A DNA stretch of 24,723 nucleotides. Origin: a virus. The DNA is taken from positions 1-24,723 of IMG/VR virus record IMGVR_UViG_3300035182_000493; one strand, 5' to 3'. The position numbers were made by a program, and so were the translations under genes. Shown here in pieces: positions 5,055-24,723 of the stretch. Each line of letters begins with the position of its first letter. The first letter of the stretch is position 1. The notes below the pieces were generated by a model. It did no database searches. It had not been told where the DNA came from and saw nothing but the letters and a program-made list of their open reading frames with translations.

Positions 5055-8000
5055 TTATCGAGATCTCTTCTGATCTACGACGGCATTAACATCATTAGTG
5101 AACAACATTACTGCATCGAGAACTGTGATCTTATCATCACACTCAAGACCGAATGATGTGCCAAGCGACTTCGGTGTCTCAGGCTTTAGTCTGAGCGTTA
5201 CATAGCCGTTGTCGGTGTACATATTCGGTAGAACGTCCCAATCGACCCTTTGAACTGTTGAAGTGTCAGGATCGCGAGTGTACACATACCCCGTGATCGC
5301 ATGGCGTGATTTCGTTCTATCATATATAGTGTACACTACTTCTGAAAGGATACTCTTCTGGTTCACTGTGCGACCGAAATATGCAGACTGCCACGTGAGC
5401 GGCACTACTGTAGCTCCAGTCTGATTGAAGAAGCTGTACTGCCAGTTCTTGACGTCATTACCAAGAATAATACCTCCAGTTGTATTGTAGAGCTTGAGAT
5501 CAGTCTGAGTAGCCTTCTTAGCGTTGATCGTTAATACGTCATCACGAATCCAGATTAGTTCTGTAGATGTCTGAAGCAGAAGAGCGTTATCGTGTACGTT
5601 GTAGATGCCGTTCCCAATCGTCTGAAGCTGGTTCATTCGTCTGTCCTTACTAAGAGTTTGACCTCCTACGAATGTCCAGAGACTATTATCAAAGCTGCTG
5701 ACGAAATATGCCATTGTTGGTGCAAGAGCTACGAACACTAGACCAGTAGCAGGGGCAACGAACGATTTATTAGAGACAAAGCCGGCAGTTCCAATCGTTA
5801 CACTGTAGATCGCGCTACCATCGAACAGGTACTTAACACCGTTGTTAAGGCTGAAGAGGTTGTATGTACCTACAATCTTGTTACCGATACGATATCCATC
5901 ATACGGCACAGGATTACTAGGATTGTTCTGCTCGAGGAAGATCGTCTGGTTGTTACCAATAATTGACTGATAACCGTATGTCTGGCCAATCGCTACCGGA
6001 ACGATCTTTGGAGTCGTTGGAGTGTTCGTGTATATCAAATTAGCCTTTGTAACATCGATCAGCTCAGAACCGTCATTGAATGTCGAGCTATAGTAGAGAT
6101 CGTTGACGTACGTATCGATTGCATACCCGGAGATTGTTGTGACATTCGGGATTCTATACCCGATGACCTCATAGTTAGTATTAGTAATCGGGCTGATCGT
6201 TACCAACTTATCGCCGACATCAATGCTATTACTGTAGGAGCTACACTGAACGCTAGCGATCTTGGTGCTTGTACCCGGCGCAGCTGAGCTTGTGAAGAAC
6301 ATTCGACCGTTGTAGTCGGATGAGCCTACCGAGAGCGATGCAGTAGCGGTGTCGAGAATGTTTAGCGGGCTAATTGTGTTGATCTTGTATGCTGTACCGC
6401 CGATGCGCTGAATCACGTTAGTCAAAGCTGTTCCGATCTTGACGAGATAGAAGCTGTTATTGTACTTGTAGCTGATCATGTCCTCAGTCGTGCTGATCAT
6501 CGGTAGGTATGTACCATCGTACTCACCGACGTTAGTGATTAGCGTACCGAGGATGTCGAGGGTCTTGTTGTCAAGAAGAGCGACTGAGAGATAACTGAGT
6601 TGTCCACTAGTACCCGCAGCAGTCGGAATAAGGCCAACGCGGAACTCAAACGGCTTAGAACTAGGTACACCGATCTGGTTATTGAGCTTACCGTATGCAT
6701 TGATGAGCGTGTTCGTATTCGACTGAATAACACTGTACTGACCCTGCGGCTGAATGATAAACTGTGGGCTGTAATATTCGTATATGTTAGTTGCCGATGC
6801 AGTCGTGCGGAACGTGAAGTCTTCATAACCTGGGCCACAGTTAGCACTAAGAACGTTGCCGTTCCCTAATGTAAATGCAGCGTTCGGCCATACTTGAGTG
6901 CCAGTCCACGTGACGAAATCGGTGTATCCCACGAGTCCTGTAGCACGAACCTGCGTGGTAACAGTGGTGTAATCAGGTAGGAACGTTGTTGTAATATGTC
7001 GAGTTACCCCTGATTTCACCTGTGGAATACAGTACGCTGCATTAAGAATCGTGATAACCTTAGTGGCATCTATGAGAGTATAGCTCTTAGATAGTGCGTT
7101 TCCTACGAGATTTAAGAGATAATAGCCGTTCTCATAGCGATAGCAGTACAAGTACGCGTTAGTCGTCTGGCCTGTTAGGAGATTAGCAACTACAGTGCCT
7201 GATGCGTTATAGAAGAGGTTTACGCTGTTATCGGCGTTGATCGATCCGAGAATACTGTTAGCTGCTCCTACGGTTAGCTTAGTACCGTAAGCTGCCATTG
7301 CAGTAATAGCATTTGCCCCAACTACGGTCAGATTACTATATGGTCCTGTACCTGTTCCGGTACCGTCATAGTTCTTCCATTGAGAGCCATCGAAGGATCC
7401 AAGGGTTCCTGCTGCTGAGCCTACGACGTATTGAGTACCGAATACTGCGGCAGCGTTAATACTTGCGGTACCAACGACGACTGCGTTATTGTTTACAGCA
7501 ACTTCCCTAAGGGTATCTAAAGAGAAGGTAAATAAACTATTACTATACACGCTATTACTATCTGAAGCTTGCATTCCAACTATAGTGTTTCCCACATACA
7601 TGAAGGCTGGACCAGTAACTGACGATGCTAGAGACTCTCCTAAGGTGTACATATTCTGTCTAAGATTAGTTCGAGTTATCCAGTTTATACCATCGGGAGA
7701 CATAGCTGTGATTGTACTAGATGTTCCGACGATGTACCCTGTTAGGACAAATACACCATCTTTGAAGATTAAACCAGTATCCCACGATACTCCAGCTACA
7801 GGGGCCGTTGCAGTATTCCAGGTTGATCCATTTGAAGAATAGACTATTGAAGGCTGTCCTGATACGTAAGTTGCAGAAGCTACAAATACTCCATTTCCAA
7901 ATGCAAGATTTGTATACTGTGCTGTTGTTGTTGGTAATGCTGTTGCATATGTAGTCCAGGTAGTACCGTCAGTTGATGTATAAACTACTCTTGAGTTCGG

Positions 8001-10814
8001 CCCTCCCTGAAGAGCAACATATACCCCGCCTCCATACACTATAGGAATATAGCTATTAGCTACTGCTGTGGTCTGTGGGAACACAGACCAGGTGATTCCA
8101 TCTGATGAAGACCATCCGTATATGTTAGAATAACTGTTACTTCCTTCAGTGTAGCTAGATATACCCACAAAGTAGAGCCCTTGAGTATACACTATTCTTG
8201 TTGCGCCCAGAACTTGGCTTCCAGGACTAGATCCAATATTAGGCAGGTTCTTACCTAGATTCCAAGATACTCCGTCGTACGAGTATGCTGTTGGAAGAGG
8301 AGACTGTGAACCACCTGGAAGTAGAACAAACTTATCAGGACCTGCTGCAATACCTCCGGCAACAAAGGGGAAAGTTACGCTAGTCCACGTCTTCATACTA
8401 TCTGTAGATACGTAACCTGTAGTAGAAGACGTTGCAAGAAGATATGTACCTTTAAGGTACGCTAGCTGCTTAAAGATAGTACTTAAAGAAGGAAGGTGTA
8501 CATACTGAAATAAGCTATCAAGAGACCTAGTAGTGTTATAATTTACCCAGTCACCTGTAGGAGCTACCTCCCCCACCTTACCAGCTGACCCCGCAACAAT
8601 CATTCTACGGTTCCATATAGTAGCCGTCAAGATATTATCAGTAGATACTACCGTACCGTTGTTAGTCGGATAGCGCTGAGTGCTTGTTGCAGTGTAGAGG
8701 GCCTTAGTATTGGTGTTGGGTAATGAGTAGGTAACTGTAGCGTGAGAGTCGGTAGAGTAGGTTGATAAGATGAAGAGACCTCCACCGTAAAGGATATTAT
8801 ACCAAGATCCGGAAGTAGTAGGGGATGTTATAAAGGTCCATGTAATTCCGTCAGGAGAAGTCGCAATGCTGTTAGTAGTAGATGTAGTGTAACTTACTGC
8901 TACAAATAGACCATTACCGTATGTGATACGATTCCAACCATACGTCCCTCCGGGGGTTGGCGTGGTTCTAAAGGTCCACGTAATTCCGTCAGGAGAAGTT
9001 GCAATACCGTTAGTAGTGGATGTGGTGTAGGCTGTTGCCACAAATAGACCGTTACCATATGTGATACGATTCCAACCATACGTCCCTCCGGGAGCAGCTG
9101 TGGTTCTAAAGGTCCATGTAATTCCGTCAGGAGAAGTTGCGATGCCGTTAGTAGTGGATGTGGTGAAGGCTACTGCCACAAATAGACCGTTACCGTATGC
9201 AACATCATACCAGCCATACCCTCCGGGAGCAGCTGTGGTTCTAAAGGTCCATGTAATTCCGTCAGGAGAAGTTGCGATGCCGTTAGTAGTGGATGTAGTG
9301 TAATTTACTGCTACAAATAGACCATTACCGTATGTGACGGTCTTCCATATTCCGCCTGGGGTAACTGGTATAGTTCTAAAGGTCCACGTAATTCCGTCAG
9401 GGGATGTAACGACAGTCTGGTTCATGAGTGCTACAAAGAGACCAGCTCCATAACACGCTACTGTAGGACAGAAGGAATTTCCGAAATCTTTAGCGACCCA
9501 CGTAATACCGTCTATCGAATATATATACTGAGAACTGCCGGGACTGAAGGTAATAATAAATACACCATTACCGTATATTTGCGTACCCACATAGCGGCCT
9601 ATATTCGGAATAGTAGTAAATGTATATGTAGTACCTGACTGCCACTTGAATGAACCGACACGACCAGAAGCACCAACAACCACAACGGTCTGGTAGCCTT
9701 CATAATCTGTATACGAAACAATCGCATTGATCTGAACAGCGCCTATTAAGGTAGCGTTATCTGCTAAGCCGCTGCTGCTATAGATCGTCCAAGCAGCTGT
9801 GTTACCGCTGCCAAGCTTACCAGCAGACCCACCAACGAAGAGGAACTTACCCGATCCAGCAAGAGTAATAACAGCCATTGCCGTTACGTTATCAGTCGAG
9901 ATTACTGTGGCGTTATTCGTAAATACGCCACCGGAGTTATATGCGTACCAAACGTTACCGTCGAATGAACCAATTAGACCAGCCGTGGCACCGACGATAA
10001 GATAGTTATCATACACCGCGAGCTTGAGGATGTTGTTCGTGCCGACGACTGTACCGTTGTTGAATGGACCAGCACCCGTACCGGAACCATCGTAATTCCT
10101 CCAGTTAACGCCGTCAAACGATCCAACGCGACCACCGTTACCGGCGACTACAAGGAACGATCCATAGACGATAACGTCATTGATCTGATTCGTACCGAGC
10201 ACTGAAGACGATTGAAGCGCCTGGGCAATCGACTGCCCTGGTGTGCTCTCACGAAGAATAACTACCTGATCTCCAAGCCTTAGAGCGAACTCAAAGCTGT
10301 CAGTGTAATGCATTGTGTTATAGCGAACAATTGAGATTGACGTGACGAATTGCGTAACATTGGCGAGACTGGTGAAGGTAATCGTGCGCTGGTTGAGCTG
10401 TACGTTATCGCTAACTCTATACTCCGTAAGGATTACGTTAGACCCGTTAACAACCGCTGTGACGTAACTACTGTCAGCTGTTATAATACAATCATCAACG
10501 CCATTGATCTGAATGCGACTCTGAACGCCATATGCAGAAACATCAGCAACGATCTTATTGTCGATCTTTAGAGTACGGCTAACACTATTAGGAATAGCGG
10601 TGATCACCTTTCCATCTTCAGTAACGAAATGAGCTCCCGTGTCGGGGTACGTCGTTTCCTTCTCATAGATATTGGTGATACCGCCATCACGTTCGATACC
10701 AGTATTCTGTACGTACGGAGCAGTAGTCTCATCAAACGAATGCACATCTTCATCAGGCGTTGCAGTGTTTACGCTGTTGTAGAGGCTTATCTCACGCTTC
10801 TCGAAACTATCCAT
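5055..10814 (-). CDS. Giant tail nozzle-like protein with Asp-box / beta-propeller repeats
   Basis: A 1919-residue protein lying directly after the adaptor gene, the slot of podovirus tail nozzle (T7 gp12/P22 gp10-type) proteins. The N-terminus (~1-190) and C-terminal ~200 residues (NAKKATQTDLKLYNTTGG; TWQSAYFGRTVNQKS) look like the structural core. Between them are two repeat families. Type I modules (NNGTVVGTNNI, then VVG.AG.VGSFDG..W..Y) occur near residues 200-390 and again after ~1108. Type II modules fill ~390-1108 and carry many Asp-box-like motifs (SPDGITWTF, SIDGITW, STDGTTW, SSDGITW) alternating with YGNGLFVA strands, as in BNR/sortilin-type propellers. Five type II units are almost identical at DNA level (8770-9440). 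There is no protease or glycan-hydrolase motif I can name. The role as nozzle plus receptor- or glycan-binding propeller is inferred. Confidence 0.7.
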   Translation of the reverse strand: MDSFEKREISLYNSVNTATPDEDVHSFDETTAPYVQNTGIERDGGITNIYEKETTYPDTGAHFVTEDGKVITAIPNSVSRTLKIDNKIVADVSAYGVQSRIQINGVDDCIITADSSYVTAVVNGSNVILTEYRVSDNVQLNQRTITFTSLANVTQFVTSISIVRYNTMHYTDSFEFALRLGDQVVILRESTPGQSIAQALQSSSVLGTNQINDVIVYGSFLVVAGNGGRVGSFDGVNWRNYDGSGTGAGPFNNGTVVGTNNILKLAVYDNYLIVGATAGLIGSFDGNVWYAYNSGGVFTNNATVISTDNVTAMAVITLAGSGKFLFVGGSAGKLGSGNTAAWTIYSSSGLADNATLIGAVQINAIVSYTDYEGYQTVVVVGASGRVGSFKWQSGTTYTFTTIPNIGRYVGTQIYGNGVFIITFSPGSSQYIYSIDGITWVAKDFGNSFCPTVACYGAGLFVALMNQTVVTSPDGITWTFRTIPVTPGGIWKTVTYGNGLFVAVNYTTSTTNGIATSPDGITWTFRTTAAPGGYGWYDVAYGNGLFVAVAFTTSTTNGIATSPDGITWTFRTTAAPGGTYGWNRITYGNGLFVATAYTTSTTNGIATSPDGITWTFRTTPTPGGTYGWNRITYGNGLFVAVSYTTSTTNSIATSPDGITWTFITSPTTSGSWYNILYGGGLFILSTYSTDSHATVTYSLPNTNTKALYTATSTQRYPTNNGTVVSTDNILTATIWNRRMIVAGSAGKVGEVAPTGDWVNYNTTRSLDSLFQYVHLPSLSTIFKQLAYLKGTYLLATSSTTGYVSTDSMKTWTSVTFPFVAGGIAAGPDKFVLLPGGSQSPLPTAYSYDGVSWNLGKNLPNIGSSPGSQVLGATRIVYTQGLYFVGISSYTEGSNSYSNIYGWSSSDGITWSVFPQTTAVANSYIPIVYGGGVYVALQGGPNSRVVYTSTDGTTWTTYATALPTTTAQYTNLAFGNGVFVASATYVSGQPSIVYSSNGSTWNTATAPVAGVSWDTGLIFKDGVFVLTGYIVGTSSTITAMSPDGINWITRTNLRQNMYTLGESLASSVTGPAFMYVGNTIVGMQASDSNSVYSNSLFTFSLDTLREVAVNNNAVVVGTASINAAAVFGTQYVVGSAAGTLGSFDGSQWKNYDGTGTGTGPYSNLTVVGANAITAMAAYGTKLTVGAANSILGSINADNSVNLFYNASGTVVANLLTGQTTNAYLYCYRYENGYYLLNLVGNALSKSYTLIDATKVITILNAAYCIPQVKSGVTRHITTTFLPDYTTVTTQVRATGLVGYTDFVTWTGTQVWPNAAFTLGNGNVLSANCGPGYEDFTFRTTASATNIYEYYSPQFIIQPQGQYSVIQSNTNTLINAYGKLNNQIGVPSSKPFEFRVGLIPTAAGTSGQLSYLSVALLDNKTLDILGTLITNVGEYDGTYLPMISTTEDMISYKYNNSFYLVKIGTALTNVIQRIGGTAYKINTISPLNILDTATASLSVGSSDYNGRMFFTSSAAPGTSTKIASVQCSSYSNSIDVGDKLVTISPITNTNYEVIGYRIPNVTTISGYAIDTYVNDLYYSSTFNDGSELIDVTKANLIYTNTPTTPKIVPVAIGQTYGYQSIIGNNQTIFLEQNNPSNPVPYDGYRIGNKIVGTYNLFSLNNGVKYLFDGSAIYSVTIGTAGFVSNKSFVAPATGLVFVALAPTMAYFVSSFDNSLWTFVGGQTLSKDRRMNQLQTIGNGIYNVHDNALLLQTSTELIWIRDDVLTINAKKATQTDLKLYNTTGGIILGNDVKNWQYSFFNQTGATVVPLTWQSAYFGRTVNQKSILSEVVYTIYDRTKSRHAITGYVYTRDPDTSTVQRVDWDVLPNMYTDNGYVTLRLKPETPKSLGTSFGLECDDKITVLDAVMLFTNDVNAVVDQKRSR
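8770..9440 (-). repeat. Five ~138-bp tandem in-frame repeats in the nozzle-like gene
   Basis: The plus-strand segment GGTCCA(C/T)GTAATTCCGTC recurs at about 8835, 8973, 9111, 9246 and 9381, giving periods of 138, 138, 135 and 135 bp (46 or 45 codons). Each unit encodes SPDGITWTF followed by a YGNGLFVA strand and a TTSTTNGIA turn. The near identity indicates recent duplication within the propeller region. Confidence 0.9.
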
Positions 10815-14345: not shown

Positions 14346-16100
14346 TTACTGACCAGGCTGTAATGGAAGTGCGTTAGTCGGTCCAGGAGCAGTCGGGGGA
14401 GCCATGTTGCCCGAAAGCGTTGACTGAGTCGACTGAACTACTGCTGCATTGACTTCGTTTATCTTTGACTTGATGATGTTGTAGAGCGTTACAAGATTAT
14501 CAAGCACCTTGCGATCCTCATCATTCGCATCGAAGCGGTTGATGTAGAAGTTGACGAGACTGAATAGCTGCTGGATGTTGACGGTCTCATAGAAGTCGTA
14601 TGTACCATCCTCAACAGCGCGCTCAACGATCCTTTCACAGACATCAAGCGAAGCAGTCTCAATCGAGAATTCCTTCTCAAGGTCTGGAATCTCCATCATC
14701 TCAGCAGCTCGATCTGCTGGAATCATCCTCATAGCGATCATCTTCTCGATCTGCTCCATCTTGACCTTCGGATCCTTAGAGAGTGCAGATGCAGGGCTGA
14801 ACTGGATAGTCATGTTATCGCGCTCACGTTTAACATCCTTCCACGTCATTCTAGCTGTACCGATCTTACGAGGTAGAATGTCATCATCCTCGGGGTACAC
14901 ATCTATACAGGTCTTAGCTACCTTCATTAGAAACAGAATGTAGTTCTGAAGTACTAAGTTGTGCCTTTCGGACTCGACATCCTCAAGCGTATCGAGAGCA
15001 ACACCGGAATTTAGACCAGCTGGCTTCTTTGCCTGTGCAGATAGCTGTGAAATACCTGCGATACCGTAGATTTCACCACGGCAGAAATTGAGATATTCGA
15101 GATATTGTGGTGAAATAGCAGGGGGAGTCGATACAATTACTGGGGTTGTTACACCGGGAGCCGGTATATACTCATAAATACTGCCGATTTCGTTATTGAT
15201 TGACGATGCCTTTACGTCGGATCCCTTAGGAACGAATACTTGATTAGCAGGGTTCAACGAGAAAGCTGTGTGAATTCGATGAGCAATCATGTCGATCTCT
15301 GTCTGGAGCGTGTAGATCTCATCGATAAGTGATGTAGTAAAGCCGCCCTTTACTGGCGGACTGTAGTGGATAAAGACGATTGGACTAGTATCAAAGCTGG
15401 TCTTCTGCTCTTTAATGAGGTTGCCATTAACAAACTCATACTTCTTCTTGTTCTTTAGGTCGAAGTAGACGTAATAATCACACTTGACCATCAGATTCTT
15501 ATCGTTCAGAAGGTTCGCTTCGGGGATGTTCTTGTTAGCGATCTTGTCCTCTAAGTAATAGAGGGGGAAGTTCCTAAAGTAAAGGAAGATGCGATTGAGC
15601 TTATCATTCTGCCATTCTGCGCGATCGTAATAGACCTCCCAGGGCCGTACACGACGTATTGACTCAGTCTCATCGTCGACCCAGAGATGACCAACTTCAA
15701 AGATCTCGGCATCACGAGCTGCCTCTATAGCCTTCTTATACACATCCTGTGCATTGTAGAGCTCATCGAAGTACAGCTGAGCGTTACGAACTGTCTTACG
15801 AGTTCTAAACGATCCATTGATGCTATTAAAGTACGGACGAACCTTCGTCTGTGAGAGCTTACTGATGTGCGTATCAACTGTCGACTTAGCATAATTGAGC
15901 ACCGGAATCACTCCCGTGTCATCATCTGTCTGTGCATAGTAGAACGATAATGGCTGTCCATATGGGTTAAACACGTCCTCTGAGCGACGACCGTTATTGC
16001 AGTAGCGATTGAAATTCCTGCGGAACTTAACATCACGTACGCTAAGGTTGGTCTTCAACTGTTCGATATCTCTCCACACGTCAGCGGCTGTTAGTTTCAT
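14346..16100 (-). CDS. Portal protein
   Basis: A 584-residue protein between terminase and scaffold. The early region (RRNFNRYCNNGRRSEDVFNP) and ATQ-free segment VLNYAKSTVDTHISKLSQTK resemble the clip-proximal part of podovirus and SPP1-type portals. The middle has QTEIDMIAHRIHTAFSLNPA, FVPKGSDVKASSINNEIGSI and the family-typical GISQLSAQAKKPAGLNSGVA followed by LDTLEDVESERHNL, the stem/tunnel-loop region. A C-terminal helical segment (RKVLDNLVTLYNIIKSKINE) is barrel-like. The portal forms the dodecameric DNA entry vertex and docks the terminase. The start ATG has an AAAGGAT site. The length is typical for a portal with a modest barrel. Confidence 0.88.
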   Translation of the reverse strand: MKLTAADVWRDIEQLKTNLSVRDVKFRRNFNRYCNNGRRSEDVFNPYGQPLSFYYAQTDDDTGVIPVLNYAKSTVDTHISKLSQTKVRPYFNSINGSFRTRKTVRNAQLYFDELYNAQDVYKKAIEAARDAEIFEVGHLWVDDETESIRRVRPWEVYYDRAEWQNDKLNRIFLYFRNFPLYYLEDKIANKNIPEANLLNDKNLMVKCDYYVYFDLKNKKKYEFVNGNLIKEQKTSFDTSPIVFIHYSPPVKGGFTTSLIDEIYTLQTEIDMIAHRIHTAFSLNPANQVFVPKGSDVKASSINNEIGSIYEYIPAPGVTTPVIVSTPPAISPQYLEYLNFCRGEIYGIAGISQLSAQAKKPAGLNSGVALDTLEDVESERHNLVLQNYILFLMKVAKTCIDVYPEDDDILPRKIGTARMTWKDVKRERDNMTIQFSPASALSKDPKVKMEQIEKMIAMRMIPADRAAEMMEIPDLEKEFSIETASLDVCERIVERAVEDGTYDFYETVNIQQLFSLVNFYINRFDANDEDRKVLDNLVTLYNIIKSKINEVNAAVVQSTQSTLSGNMAPPTAPGPTNALPLQPGQ

Positions 16101-16477: not shown

Positions 16478-18151
16478 TTAAGACTGCACTTTCTGTGAGA
16501 AAGCCCAGACATTCCTAAGAGCATACAGGACAGCATCCATCAAGTCTGGGTGATAGACCCTGTCATCGATCTGATGCGTAAGCTCATCACGCTCATTTCG
16601 TTCATATAGCGTCAATAGCGTTTCATTGTAGAAGCTGAGTGGGTCGGGCATCTCACCACCGTTCGGGTTCGGTACTAATGTCTTGCGAACCTTTAGAGTG
16701 CCTGTGCGTACCTCGTCCCTAAGAGCCTCTATCGCCCAATCTTTATCGTACTTCATAGCGTTCTGTGCTGGAATACCGCTCTTATACAGCTCGTACGTAA
16801 TGGTCTGTTCGTTAGTATCGCAGTAGAACGGGCAGAACTTGTTACGCTCGGGAATGTCTTTGAACTTCTGATCGCCTCCAATGTACATCTGAAGGTCATG
16901 ACAGGCAGATTTGATCTCATCTATGCCGCGGCCATTCCACTTACGCTCAAAGATCAGCCATTTCTCGGGCTTGGTTTCACTATACATGAAGCCGACTACA
17001 GCTGTATAGTCTACATAACCATAGTCAATGCCCCCAGAGAACTTAATGTCTGATCGAGGCTGGCTGTTGATCCACTCGACCATCTGCTGATCAACAAAGA
17101 CGTTATTATCACTTAGACGAAATACAAGTGCGTCATCATCATATGCAATACCACCAAGGTACTCTCTAATGTACAATGGACTAGACTCTGTTAGATTCTT
17201 ACGTACCAGCGTATCCTGTAGCTGTGCTTTACCATCCTTGATGAAGGGGTTGTTCATTAGATTCCAGTTCAATCGCATACCTGGGAAGTGCTTCTCTTCT
17301 GTCCACACGCGCTCCCAATATGTACCACGCGATCGAGGACCCGTACCGGCAAGAATAAGCTGTCCGTTATAGTCAATCAACGACGGCTCAATAACCTCAC
17401 TAACAAACCTTTCAAGCTCCGACTGTGACTGAGCTTCGTCGATCATTACTATGTGCCATTTCGATCCTCGCCACTTCTCTCTATCAGCCTTACTAGTGTT
17501 ACCGCTAAAGAATATCTGCGATTCGTTCTGTAACACAATTAGGTTCTCGGCGGTCCTTAGTTCATATGGAATGCCGAGGTCTTTGAGGATCTGAATCGTT
17601 GGACCCCAGAAGTAGTCAAGACAGCGCTGTAACGTCAAGCCGATAATAAGAATCCTACCAGCCTCGTGCTCTACTGCAACCGTAAGAGCCTTGCGAATCA
17701 TACCTTCCGTCTTACCTGCACGTCTACCAGCCATCAAGTAGATGAACTTCTCTTTAGATAGAATTACCCGTTGTTGATAGTCGTGACATGTCTTTATAAT
17801 ACGATATGCAAGGAAGTCTGTATCACGTGTCTTCGCTCTGTTGAATATCTCGTCAAGCTGCTCGGCGTTAGTAGGTAGAAGCTTATCAGCTAGGTTCTTC
17901 GCTTGCCATCCATTAGGCTCGGTAACTGCTCGCTCAATGAAGCCCGTTAGAAACCTATCCATAGCAGTACGGCCGCTCTTGTCTGTTGCATCGAGTGACT
18001 GAAGCACAAGTCCTTTAGCGTATGTGTTGATCGACGTGCCGACCGGGCGACCTTTAGGGTTGTGTCCAGGCTCACCAGCCTTCTGCATATTAGCTAAGCT
18101 GTTGGGATGGCGTCCTCTCTTCTTCTTTGGCTGCTCTGTCTCGTCACTCAT
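16478..18151 (-). CDS. terL: Terminase large subunit (TerL) with N-terminal NPKGRP-type extension
   Basis: The DNA-packaging motor ATPase and nuclease, 557 residues from the chosen ATG. Walker A is AGRRAGKTEG (141-150), Walker B HIVMIDEA (233-240), and the coupling segment LILAGTG (265-271). The nuclease acidic residues are probably D376 (GGIDYGYVDYTA), D445 (FYCDTNEQT) and D536/D539 (YHPDLMDAVLYAL). The start was set at ATG 18151 because GAGGTGA sits 5 nt upstream; a longer frame to 18226 would run through the promoter-like element and terminator. Residues 1-60 carry NSLANMQKAGEPGHNPKGRP, a motif typical of separate DUF5681-type small-terminase-like proteins, suggesting a fused or vestigial TerS segment. 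No separate TerS gene is obvious. Confidence 0.93.
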   Translation of the reverse strand: MSDETEQPKKKRGRHPNSLANMQKAGEPGHNPKGRPVGTSINTYAKGLVLQSLDATDKSGRTAMDRFLTGFIERAVTEPNGWQAKNLADKLLPTNAEQLDEIFNRAKTRDTDFLAYRIIKTCHDYQQRVILSKEKFIYLMAGRRAGKTEGMIRKALTVAVEHEAGRILIIGLTLQRCLDYFWGPTIQILKDLGIPYELRTAENLIVLQNESQIFFSGNTSKADREKWRGSKWHIVMIDEAQSQSELERFVSEVIEPSLIDYNGQLILAGTGPRSRGTYWERVWTEEKHFPGMRLNWNLMNNPFIKDGKAQLQDTLVRKNLTESSPLYIREYLGGIAYDDDALVFRLSDNNVFVDQQMVEWINSQPRSDIKFSGGIDYGYVDYTAVVGFMYSETKPEKWLIFERKWNGRGIDEIKSACHDLQMYIGGDQKFKDIPERNKFCPFYCDTNEQTITYELYKSGIPAQNAMKYDKDWAIEALRDEVRTGTLKVRKTLVPNPNGGEMPDPLSFYNETLLTLYERNERDELTHQIDDRVYHPDLMDAVLYALRNVWAFSQKVQS

Positions 18152-18185
18152 GTAAATCACCTCTCTGATAACTATTGATATCGCT

Positions 18186-18203
18186 ATTATATAGTATAGT
18201 CTA
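18186..18203 (-). promoter_or_regulatory. Late-type promoter-like element before TerL
   Basis: The minus strand reads TAGACTATACTATATAAT, a variant of the TACACTATATA core placed between a terminator and the TerL ribosome binding site. It also contains TATAAT-like words, so a host sigma-70 -10 box cannot be excluded. Confidence 0.4.
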
Positions 18204-18204
18204 T

Positions 18205-18238
18205 GTACAAAGAGAGACCCTCTCACTAAGAAAGGGTC
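18205..18238 (-). terminator. Hairpin terminator before TerL operon
   Basis: The minus-strand stem GACCCTTTC / GAGAGGGTC has nine pairs (one G-U), loop TTAGT, then TCTCTTTGTAC. It follows the stop of the 172-aa gene by about 20 bp. It shares the GACCCT/AGGGTC arms and CTTTGT tail with the terminator after the capsid gene. Confidence 0.8.
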
Positions 18239-19938: not shown

Positions 19939-20103
19939 TTACTCTGCCGTATTAGCGCTCTCTACATCTGCGAGAAGCTTAGCTATAAGAGCATCTGACT
20001 GCTCGTCTGTTAGATCTGATGTACAGATCACGTCGCCAGTTACGATAAGTGATTCGATCGCTGCGGGGATCTCACTGCTCTGTGCAATGATAATTCGTTT
20101 CAT
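19939..20103 (-). CDS. Small protein of unknown function downstream of Tad2-like gene
   Basis: A 54-residue protein, MKRIIIAQSSEIPAAIESLI onward. The ATG at 20103 overlaps the previous TAA (TAATG) and has AAGGAG 8 nt upstream; a longer TTG-started frame would lack this spacing. It has a beta strand at the N-terminus, a helix (SSEIPAAIESLI), then an acidic helix (TDEQSDALIAKLLADVESAN). No family recognised. Confidence 0.7.
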   Translation of the reverse strand: MKRIIIAQSSEIPAAIESLIVTGDVICTSDLTDEQSDALIAKLLADVESANTAE

Positions 20104-20357
20104 TAGTCCATCTCCTTCCAATCATCGGCGAATAGGTCCTGCTGAGATGGAACCCACGGTACGCGAGTGTAACCACGACCGCTTCCAGCTGTCTCGATGA
20201 ACATGTACAAATACCTGTCTGTCATAGCCGACTGAGAATCCGGCATCTGTGTCTTTACGAACATCATCTTGCCGAGCGCACGACCGTTCCACCCCTCTCG
20301 GGTGATTGCAATGTCTCTGTCATCGCGAATCAAAGTAAGTGCTTCACTAAACTGCAT
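20103..20357 (-). CDS. tad2: DUF2829 protein, Thoeris anti-defence Tad2-like
   Basis: An 84-residue protein matching the DUF2829/Tad2 pattern across its length: FSEALTLIRDDRDIAITREG, the W-N-G motif (W23-N24-G25), a variable loop with MMFVKTQMPDSQ, the strand YLYMFIETAG, and the C-terminal signature VPWVPSQQDLFADDW (66-80). Tad2 proteins from other phages form tetramers that bind and sequester the cyclic ADP-ribose-type signal made by Thoeris ThsB, preventing ThsA activation. The key family residues are present. It sits in a leftward early-type operon after a CACTAATTA element and AAGGAG. Function here is inferred from family; Thoeris in the host is unknown. Confidence 0.85.
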   Translation of the reverse strand: MQFSEALTLIRDDRDIAITREGWNGRALGKMMFVKTQMPDSQSAMTDRYLYMFIETAGSGRGYTRVPWVPSQQDLFADDWKEMD

Positions 20358-20374
20358 TATTTATCTCCTTCTTC

Positions 20375-20384
20375 TAATTAGTGT
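20375..20384 (-). promoter_or_regulatory. CACTAATTA element before Tad2-like gene
   Basis: The minus strand reads CCACACTAATTAGAAGAAGG. The HNH stop codon TAA is inside the motif, and the Tad2-like start lies 17 nt downstream. Same element as at 21221, 20924 and the plus-strand copies. Confidence 0.5.
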
Positions 20385-20674
20385 GGTAGAAATGGACCGA
20401 GTAAATCTAGCCATTTCTCCTTGTTAGCTATCATATCTGCTTTACTACCGTGTAGTCTACGTGCCATCTTCTCTACTAAATTGTGACAGTCCTTGCAGAG
20501 TAGCTTGAACTTAAGCGGATCTAAGTCTTGATAATTAGCTGGATCAAGATGATGTAGATTTAACCCCTTCTTCTTGATTCCGCAACACTCACATCTACTA
20601 TCTCGCTCATGAACGATCTTCTCTCTAAACTGCTTCCATTCTTTCGTCTGGCGATACGCTGTATGCTCGCTCAT
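20378..20674 (-). CDS. HNH endonuclease
   Basis: A 98-residue HNH nuclease. The zinc-finger-like frame is visible: CECC (C33, C36 region), LNLHHLDP with the catalytic HH pair, and LLCKDCHNLVE with the second CxxC and final H. The spacing fits the family. Such proteins nick or cut DNA; in phages they act as free-standing homing-type nucleases or help packaging. It is not next to terminase. The ATG overlaps the previous TGA (ATGA), with no clear Shine-Dalgarno: a CACTAATTAC element lies directly before it, so translation likely relies on coupling. Freestanding homing nuclease or early host-DNA nuclease are both possible. Confidence 0.85.
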   Translation of the reverse strand: MSEHTAYRQTKEWKQFREKIVHERDSRCECCGIKKKGLNLHHLDPANYQDLDPLKFKLLCKDCHNLVEKMARRLHGSKADMIANKEKWLDLLGPFLPH

Positions 20675-20910
20675 ACGTAATTAGTGACACCAATGCAACC
20701 CTGCGTCTCTACGTTGTTTCCAGTAGTTCCCGCATACGCTACTACACGATGCTGGAGGCGAATATATTCTTCCTCTGTATACGTTAACCCGCGAGAATCA
20801 CTAAACATCACTCGCAGAATTGGCTTATTGCGACGTACAAATTCGTTACCATACTTTCGTCGAGCATGAGCGAAGAAGTCGTCTACGTTGTTATATGCGA
20901 AATCATCCAT
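20671..20910 (-). CDS. Small protein of unknown function upstream of HNH gene
   Basis: A 79-residue protein from ATG 20910, chosen over the upstream GTG because GGAGG sits 6 nt before this ATG. The N-terminus is acidic/aromatic (MDDFAYNNVDDFFAHARRKY), then basic (EFVRRNKPILRVMF) and a Tyr/Glu-rich helix (YTEEEYIRLQHRVVAY). The C-terminal codons overlap a CACTAATTAC element. No family recognised. Confidence 0.7.
   Translation of the reverse strand: MDDFAYNNVDDFFAHARRKYGNEFVRRNKPILRVMFSDSRGLTYTEEEYIRLQHRVVAYAGTTGNNVETQGCIGVTNYV
20677..20686 (-). promoter_or_regulatory. CACTAATTAC element overlapping HNH start
   Basis: The minus strand reads GGTGTCACTAATTACGTATG, the last bases forming the HNH start region. 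It lies within the final codons (VTNYV) of the preceding gene, so it may be a chance match or a promoter constrained by coding. Confidence 0.35.
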
Positions 20911-20923
20911 TATCACCCTCCTT

Positions 20924-20933
20924 GTAATTAGTA
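20924..20933 (-). promoter_or_regulatory. TACTAATTAC element before the 79-aa gene
   Basis: The minus strand reads GGCTACTAATTACAAGGAGG. The thioredoxin-like stop TAA lies inside the motif and the next Shine-Dalgarno follows at once. Confidence 0.45.
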
Positions 20934-21191
20934 GCCAATTCCGAGCTTCTTTAGAATCGTCTTAGCTGACATACTCCCTACGTATGTTTCAAGATCGTTA
21001 CCATTTGCATCTCTAAAGATGATAAACGGCACACTTTGAATGTTATAGCGATCTACATACTCAGGATGCCTCTCAACATCGAGTACTTGATACCGAAGCA
21101 TCGGGTAGTCATTCTTGAGTCGCGCTAACTCGTCCTTAAGACTCGTACAAGGATGACACCATGACGCGCTTAATACAATCATTTCACTCAC
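20928..21191 (-). CDS. Thioredoxin/glutaredoxin-like protein
   Basis: An 87-residue thioredoxin-fold protein. The active site is WCHPC (ASWCHPCTSLKDELARL), followed by a second strand (YQVLDVERHPEYVDRYNIQS) and the cis-proline motif SVPFIIFRDANG. It ends with a C-terminal helix (SAKTILKKLG). It probably reduces disulfides, for example those of a phage or host ribonucleotide reductase, as glutaredoxin-like NrdC does in T4. The GTG start at 21191 is preferred over the ATG nine bases inside because AGGAGG lies 7 nt before GTG. It is the first gene of the leftward unit, behind a CACTAATTA element. Confidence 0.9.
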   Translation of the reverse strand: MSEMIVLSASWCHPCTSLKDELARLKNDYPMLRYQVLDVERHPEYVDRYNIQSVPFIIFRDANGNDLETYVGSMSAKTILKKLGIGY

Positions 21192-21230: not shown

Positions 21231-21293
21231 CCCGCTAGGCAAACAGTCGAACTTCAGCTAGCCCCTTGGTTTGACGTGCTTCAGCGGGTTCAC
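21227..21293. other. Cruciform: nested inverted repeats
   Basis: The outer arms GTGACCCGCT and AGCGGGTTCAC pair with one bulged T (10 pairs). The inner arms GTCGAAC and GTTTGAC pair over seven bases (one G-U) around a 16-base loop. Both outer ends point into CACTA sequences: CACTAATTATATA leftward and CACTATCTATATAG rightward. Confidence 0.7.
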
Positions 21294-21296
21294 TAT

Positions 21297-21373
21297 CTAT
21301 ATAGAAATCCCCGTTATCTCTGGAGAATTCATTCGGTCTCCAATGCAAACAGAGTCCGACTAAGATTACCTAA
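21297..21373. repeat. Repeat A, copy 1
   Basis: Begins CTATATAGAAATCCCCG, contains TGGAGAATTCATTCGGTCTC (21321-21340) and ends GACTAAGATTACCTAAG. Copy 2 lies 323 bp to the right with scattered single-base differences. Confidence 0.9.
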
Positions 21374-21440
21374 GTGCTTCTAGAATCGATCAGACCGAAA
21401 TGCTTTCATCTGTATCTCTGTAGATAGTGTATGTCTTGTT

Positions 21441-21574
21441 ACTCTTTCTAGTCTGAGTTAATTTCATGAGAGATAGAAATCATAGTAAATACAAAGATAT
21501 GATAGCTAGCTAAGATAGATGAAATATGTTAGTTATCATGAAATTAGATAGGTTAGTAGATATGCCTCTGCTAT
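21441..21574. repeat. Repeat B, copy 1, degenerate inverted repeat
   Basis: Begins ACTCTTTCTAG and ends GCCTCTGCTAT. Its inverted arms TAATTTCATGA (21459-21469) and TCATGAAATTA (21536-21546) give 11 perfect pairs, fewer than copies 2 and 3. Confidence 0.88.
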
Positions 21575-21619
21575 ATCTTTCTAGCTTGAGTTAATCTCGT
21601 GGTTAATAGCAGTCCCTGC

Positions 21620-21696
21620 CTATATAGAAATCCCCGCTATCCCTGGAGAATTCATTCGGTCTCTAATGCAAATAAAGTTCGACTAAGATTACATAG
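21620..21696. repeat. Repeat A, copy 2
   Basis: CTATATAGAAATCCCCG then the 20-bp core at 21644-21663, identical to copy 1, ending GACTAAGATTACATAG. Unlike copy 1 it lacks the CACTA sequence just upstream. Confidence 0.9.
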
Positions 21697-21765
21697 GCCA
21701 GTCATATGAAACGCTTTATCCAATGAAATCTACATCTTTGTAGATAGCTATAAATGTCTTTGTCT

Positions 21766-21905
21766 ACTCTTTCTAGTTTGAGTTAATTTCATGACAGATA
21801 GAAATCATGTTAGATACAAAGATAATATAGATAGATAAGATAGATAAGATAGATTATCTATCTGTCATGAAATTAGGATAGACGAATAGAAGATGCCTCT
21901 GCTAT
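21766..21905. repeat. Repeat B, copy 2, long inverted repeat
   Basis: The arms TAATTTCATGACAGATAG (21784-21801) and CTATCTGTCATGAAATTA (21858-21875) are perfectly complementary over 18 bases, extendable by one. The 56-base loop is rich in GATAGATAAGATAGA units. Confidence 0.92.
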
Positions 21906-22026
21906 CTCTTTCTAGTCTGAGTTAATTTCATGACAGATAGAAATCATAGTAAATACAAAGATAATATAGATAAGATAGATTGCCTATCTGTCATGAAATT
22001 AAGATAGGCTGGTAGAAGATACCTCT
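21906..22026. repeat. Repeat B, copy 3, long inverted repeat
   Basis: The same 18-base arms occur at 21923-21940 and 21984-22001, with a 43-base loop. The loop is shorter than in copy 2 mainly because it has fewer GATAA units. Confidence 0.92.
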
Positions 22027-24312: not shown

Positions 24313-24330
24313 TACACTAAATATATAGAG
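24313..24330 (+). promoter_or_regulatory. TACACTAAATATATAGAG element
   Basis: Combines the TACACTA start and TATATAGAG end of the late-type elements, on the plus strand just after the 56-aa stop. It runs directly into a hairpin, so a processing or transcription-start role is possible. Confidence 0.4.
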
Positions 24331-24350
24331 TGCCCGGGCAGCCGGGCACT
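24329..24350 (+). terminator. Strong GC hairpin, possible terminator or processing site
   Basis: AGTGCCCGG-GCAG-CCGGGCACT: nine perfect pairs, tetraloop GCAG. The plus-strand tail ACATATATACA is not U-rich; the minus-strand tail CTATATATTT is more so. Either a weak terminator or an mRNA-stabilising/processing hairpin. Confidence 0.55.
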
Positions 24351-24371
24351 ACATATATACAAGGGGCTACG

Positions 24372-24723
24372 ATGACACGATACGCGATCTTTGGGGACTC
24401 ACACTTAGAGTCTGGAATGCCGGTAGACCCGGCCTATACACTGTTTAAGCAGGTTGTAAAGAAAGAGAAGTTTGATGGAATTATCTGTCTAGGGGATATG
24501 ATGGATTTCAGCTATGTTAGTCACTGGACTGAGGATCAACCAGGGTTAACCGAAGGAAAGAGACTTAAGGCAGACTTCGATATCTTCAGAAGCGAACTTG
24601 AGTTCTTTAATAAGAATACGAAAGAAGTTCTATTCCTAGAAGGTAATCACTGCCAGCGAGTAAATAAGTATATCCTAAAGAACCCGGTTCTTGAAGGTAT
24701 TCTTAGTTTGAAGGAGATCTGTA
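24372..24723 (+). CDS. Metallophosphoesterase (calcineurin-like), cut by right edge
   Basis: The first ~117 residues of a calcineurin-like phosphoesterase. The metal-binding motifs are in order: FGDSHLE (D9, H11), CLGDMMDFSYV (G-D-x-x-D) and FLEGNHCQRV (G-N-H-x-x-R). Between them is a helix (YTLFKQVVKKEKFDGI) and a conserved aromatic. Such phage enzymes hydrolyse phosphomonoesters, phosphodiesters or nucleotide second messengers; the substrate cannot be told from this part. The second half with the remaining metal-binding histidines lies outside the window. ATG 24372 follows AAGGGG at a usable distance, after the hairpin at 24329. Confidence 0.9.
   Translation, partial: MTRYAIFGDSHLESGMPVDPAYTLFKQVVKKEKFDGIICLGDMMDFSYVSHWTEDQPGLTEGKRLKADFDIFRSELEFFNKNTKEVLFLEGNHCQRVNKYILKNPVLEGILSLKEIC

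Follow-up and report, generated by a model that had tools for sequence, protein, structure and literature searches.

A divergent short-form member of the Tad2-like family encoded by an IMG/VR phage

Organization of the locus

We analysed a stretch of viral DNA of 24,723 nucleotides (IMG/VR record IMGVR_UViG_3300035182_000493, positions 1 to 24,723), hereafter referred to as the window. A run of small genes is read leftward from a divergent non-coding region, in the order thioredoxin-like protein, 81-aa protein, HNH endonuclease, Tad2-like protein and 54-aa ORF. These are followed by a 189-aa protein, a ribbon-helix-helix protein and further small ORFs, and then by the terminase and portal genes. 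The Tad2-like gene (20103 to 20357, minus strand) has 84 codons, an ATG start and a match to the Pfam family PF11195, and a Shine-Dalgarno sequence, AAGGAG (20365 to 20370, minus strand), can be read directly from the DNA 7 nt 5′ of the ATG. These features, among them a good ribosome-binding site, confirm as real the gene that a preliminary description of this DNA had placed at these coordinates. Its stop codon overlaps the start of the 54-aa ORF in the sequence TAATG.

The encoded protein displays both motifs that had been ascribed to it: W23-N24-G25 and the ending PWVPSQQDLFADDW (P67 to W80; codons at 20118 to 20159, minus strand), within which a motif check located the pattern W-x-x-S-Q-x-D-x-x-x-x-D-W at residues 68-80. 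Between W-N-G and strand 2 lies the segment RALGKM (residues 26-31; codons at 20265 to 20282, minus strand), which holds an insertion of four residues.

The thioredoxin-like protein (20928 to 21191, minus strand; 87 aa) contains a WCHPC motif and matches PF00085 (E = 4.9e-10), while the HNH endonuclease (20378 to 20674, minus strand; 98 aa) matches PHROG 144 (HNH, E = 7.5e-11). Phages commonly carry HNH genes close to their terminase genes, and no anti-defence explanation is needed for their presence. Profile and similarity searches yielded no significant relatives of the 54-aa ORF (19939 to 20103, minus strand) or of the 81-aa protein (20671 to 20916, minus strand; 79 aa if counted from its ATG). 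Hence the suggestion that the small neighbours may also be anti-defence factors was not borne out, as the thioredoxin and HNH families are identifiable and the other two proteins have no significant relatives to support it. The 87-aa neighbour formerly listed as unknown is apparently none other than the thioredoxin-like protein.

Family membership and predicted fold

The 84-aa protein matched PF11195 (Tad2-like, formerly DUF2829) with an E-value of 3.4e-15 and 56.8 bits, against a curated cut-off of 25 bits, over positions 1-71 of the 73 in the profile. It also matched PHROG families 872 and 1048, both of unknown function, and a third one weakly; NCBIfam gave no match. Among solved structures, phmmer retrieved SPO1 Tad2 (E = 2e-4), Myroides Tad2, HgmTad2/AcrIIA7 and, weakly, SptTad2, all four of which were retrieved at E = 3e-14 or better by a profile built from 50 sequences.

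A monomer was predicted with AlphaFold2 from an alignment that included 49 relatives from viral contigs (pLDDT 88.2, pTM 0.76). The model consists of helix 3-12, strand 17-20, helix 24-28, strands 32-37, 49-55 and 63-67, helix 72-76 and strand 80-83. When it was submitted to Foldseek, the top 19 matches were all Tad2 chains, with E-values down to 6.8e-5. VIA-align likewise ranked the solved Tad2s first (Z 10.3-11.3, rmsd 1.6-2.2 over 70-72 residues), including complexes with gcADPR (SPO1), hisADPR (ModTad2), cADPR (HgmTad2) and cGG, and the first unrelated chain followed at Z 6.1. The neck protein of phage 812, considered as a fold relative, was set aside as background (Z 6.1, 10% identity). 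The match to the family is well beyond chance, since 76 phage records contain relatives by tblastn and the predicted fold matches solved Tad2s. Membership in the Tad2-like family, as proposed earlier, is thus well supported by sequence profiles and by the structural model.

SPO1 Tad2 (gp34.65; PDB 8SME, 8SMF and 8SMG) shares the fold of the window protein over the whole chain (Z 11.2-11.3), together with the W-N-G loop and a W-V-P-S-Q-x-D-x-x-A-x-D-W end, at approximately 32% identity in structure-aligned positions. Unlike the window protein, it has a longer segment after strand 2 and no Q-x-P-D-x-x-S-x-M signature. ModTad2, from a Myroides odoratus prophage (PDB 9EIB, with hisADPR, and 8V3E), tied for the top fold match (Z 11.3, with an rmsd of 1.6 over 71 residues) and displays the same motifs at 28% identity; it is a long-insert form, reported to bind the His-ADPR of type II Thoeris (PMC13299392). 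HgmTad2/AcrIIA7 and SptTad2 (PDB 8KBI-8KBM, 8WJD and 9KZR) also have this fold (Z 10.3-10.9) and a W-L-A-S-Q-T-D end, but carry a long insertion, reported as a dinucleotide site (PMC12043709), which the window protein lacks.

The presence of AcrIIA7 chains among both the sequence and the fold matches raises a further function. This Tad2-like protein came out of a selection for Cas9 inhibition and was isolated as a Cas9 inhibitor, so members of the family need not all be anti-Thoeris, and naming a function from the family alone calls for caution. Nevertheless, we consider it highly improbable that the window protein is itself an anti-CRISPR acting on Cas9. Structures deposited for AcrIIA7 contain cADPR and cGG, which suggests that what unites proteins of this fold is the binding of signals; in addition, the window shows no sign of a Cas9-bearing host.

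Short-form and long-insert Tad2-like proteins

Alignments revealed a very common short form of Tad2-like proteins, recognizable by the signature Q-x-P-D-x-x-S-x-M-x-x-x-Y that lies between the second and third strands. The signature was displayed by 74 of the 106 sampled sequences, the window protein counted, a figure that is no census because the sample is biased towards the query. Within this sample it was absent from the Tad2s of SPO1, Myroides and Spt and from the SBSphiC homologue. In a 53-row tree, a branch supported at 99/94 sets the 16 long-insert sequences, these four included, apart from the rest, and in the tree of 106 rows the four fall, with other long-insert rows, on a branch supported at 96/91. 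HgmTad2, of which only part of the sequence is printed, was left out of both trees. The solved Tad2s of SPO1, Myroides and Spt belong to a well-supported long-insert group, apart from the short-form rows.

The window protein shares the signature with short-form proteins (PHROG 872 and 1048), to which it is up to 49% identical, and departs from their usual S-K-M-T-x-P-Y by A44 in place of K and R48 in place of P. It forms the longest branch of the 53-row tree, and an AU test did not reject its joining with the long-insert group (p = 0.725); it was assigned to the short form because of its signature and short linker, not because of its position in the tree.

We found no short-form member that had been assayed in the part of the literature available to us; a survey on the diversity of sponges, cited in PMC13232231, may cover some. 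Since the short form groups apart from the solved Tad2s, an anti-Thoeris label on every short-form gene outruns the evidence available to us. In this analysis, short-form genes occurred not only in phages but also in bacterial and archaeal contigs, and the question of their ligand bears on many phages.

The putative ligand pocket and its loop

In SPO1 Tad2, the gcADPR pocket is made of the β1-β2 loop, the β3-β4 loop and strand 4 of one protomer and of the β1-β2 loop, the β4-α3 loop and helix 3 of another (PMC12043709). Of the 27 positions at which at least 90% of the 49 other short-form sequences agree, the window protein keeps 21, among them R20, G22-W23-N24-G25, V66-P67-W68, S71-Q72, D74 and D79-W80. 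The remaining six are changed (G13D, K44A, P48R, A70P, T73Q and L76F), although the proline at position 70 also occurs in SPO1 Tad2. Conserved residues of the regions that make up the SPO1 Tad2 pocket are retained.

Six residues separate W-N-G from strand 2 in the window protein, four more than the two found in all 73 of the other signature-bearing sequences and in the SPO1, Myroides and Spt Tad2s as printed. The insertion is unique to the window protein among some 76 comparable proteins. The loop made longer in this way is one that lines the ligand pocket of SPO1 Tad2. That the longer loop gives the protein a ligand unlike those shown so far for Tad2 seems to us rather improbable; were it true, the protein would expose a nucleotide immune signal, TIR-made or other, for which no sponge of this fold is known as yet.

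The altered loop can also be read in favour of another ligand class, in which case the protein would use the Tad2 fold to sponge a signal that does not belong to the ADP-ribose group, for instance a CBASS cyclic dinucleotide or an undescribed signal. Structures of HgmTad2/AcrIIA7 and SptTad2 hold cGG according to their PDB titles, and binding of cyclic dinucleotides by Tad2, through the long insertion after strand 2, is reported in a review (PMC12043709). However, this insertion is missing from the window protein: in its model, strand 32-37 is followed after 11 residues by strand 49-55. In addition, SPO1 Tad2 fails to bind 3′3′-cGAMP (PMC11722364). We therefore regard a signal of this kind as unlikely, while giving it more weight than the other alternatives.

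The same insertion, the long branch in the reduced tree and the six changed positions could alternatively be marks of a degraded or repurposed member that has lost nucleotide-signal binding. This appears quite improbable, as the reading frame is intact and preceded by a good ribosome-binding site, the most conserved residues are kept and the model is confident.

Relatives and their genomic context

The relatives detected by tblastn in phage records reached best identities of 43-44%, and the highest identity to any short-form relative was 49% (contig L031). A scan of viral contigs with the window protein alone as query retrieved no relative, and a motif scan for PWxxSQxDLFADDW matched a single contig (L030). 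Contigs of genomes assigned to archaea and to numerous bacterial phyla also contained relatives, a spread expected for a mobile phage gene.

Around the 49 relatives from viral contigs, the neighbouring genes vary. Portal and terminase genes come up most often among the annotated neighbours, though in small numbers, and ribonucleotide reductase, PhoH, GroES and dUTPase genes also adjoin relatives. Such mixed neighbourhoods neither prove nor exclude a role in counter-defence, and they lend no weight to the idea that the genes next to the window's Tad2-like gene are anti-defence factors.

Several relatives adjoin terminase or portal genes, and in the window the Tad2-like gene lies a few genes ahead of both, an arrangement that might suit an accessory protein of packaging or of the virion with no part in anti-defence. 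The neck protein of phage 812, a weak match by fold (Z 6.1), could be cited in the same sense, but this match falls inside the background range stated by VIA-align, and the variety of the other neighbours is at odds with a packaging function. The chance that this alternative is correct is, in our judgement, slim.

In Aeromonas phage Ahp1 (L002:1483-3204), a short-form Tad2-like gene lies directly 5′ of a nicotinamide phosphoribosyltransferase gene, and this NAD-salvage neighbour fits an anti-NADase role. Two other ORFs (L063:2743-3237 and L045:1805-2359) fuse Phage_gp49_66 (PF13876, function unknown) to a C-terminal Tad2-like domain, and further members have N-terminal extensions of 50-220 aa that match no Pfam family.

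Proposed function

Based on analogy with characterised relatives, we propose that the window protein is probably a Tad2-like sponge for a signal of the ADP-ribose type that a TIR enzyme produces. It would assemble into a homotetramer with pockets between protomers, formed by the β1-β2 loop with W-N-G, by the β3-β4 loop and strand 4, and by the C-terminal S-Q-x-D-x-x-A-x-D-W. These pockets would hold cyclic or glycocyclic ADP-ribose or His-ADPR; sequestration of the signal would keep the Thoeris effector off, and the cell might then survive long enough for phage production. We name the signal as a class, not as a single species, because this is a short-form protein with a longer β1-β2 loop.

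The reported ligands of Myroides Tad2 and SPO1 Tad2 are His-ADPR and gcADPR, respectively (PMC13299392), which indicates that the ligand class holds across divergent members. The NAD-related neighbour of the Ahp1 relative also speaks for an ADP-ribose sponge, whereas the insertion found only in the window protein, which falls within a loop reported as pocket-lining, speaks against it. Furthermore, the function is carried over a subfamily border, since a supported branch separates off the solved Tad2s. The anti-Thoeris role put forward in the preliminary description is thus upheld in part: family and fold agree with it, while the differences between the short form and the solved Tad2s and the unique four-residue insertion weaken it. 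Sequestration of the cyclic ADP-ribose of Thoeris by this protein is a reasonable inference from its relatives.

The window protein is a divergent but ordinary addition to a known counter-defence family, and only the short-form question and the loop insertion might be of further interest to a specialist.

Other features of the phage

The phage that carries this gene has a terminase (16478-18226) and a portal protein (14346-16100) for which tblastn gave no match at E = 1e-5 in 50,697 phage records. The large terminase subunit (TerL) also had no match in the bacterial genomes searched, and was identical to the terminase of one short IMG/VR contig (L094). The lack of terminase and portal matches suggests that the phage belongs to a lineage unrepresented in those 50,697 records.

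The non-coding stretch of approximately 1 kb that separates the leftward from the rightward genes contains diverged direct repeats at 21275-22026 (three copies of about 98 nt and four of 53 nt) and a perfect inverted repeat of 19 nt (TAATTTCATGACAGATAGA and its complement), and is possibly an origin or control region. A protein of 1919 aa (5055-10814) contains repeated, propeller-like units such as GNGLFVAV-YTTSTTNGIATSPDGITWTFRT, and is perhaps a tail or receptor-binding protein. Lastly, an open-ended ORF at 24330-24722 displays GDSHLESG...GDMMDF...EGNHCQR, recognised by eye as the motifs of a calcineurin-like phosphoesterase.
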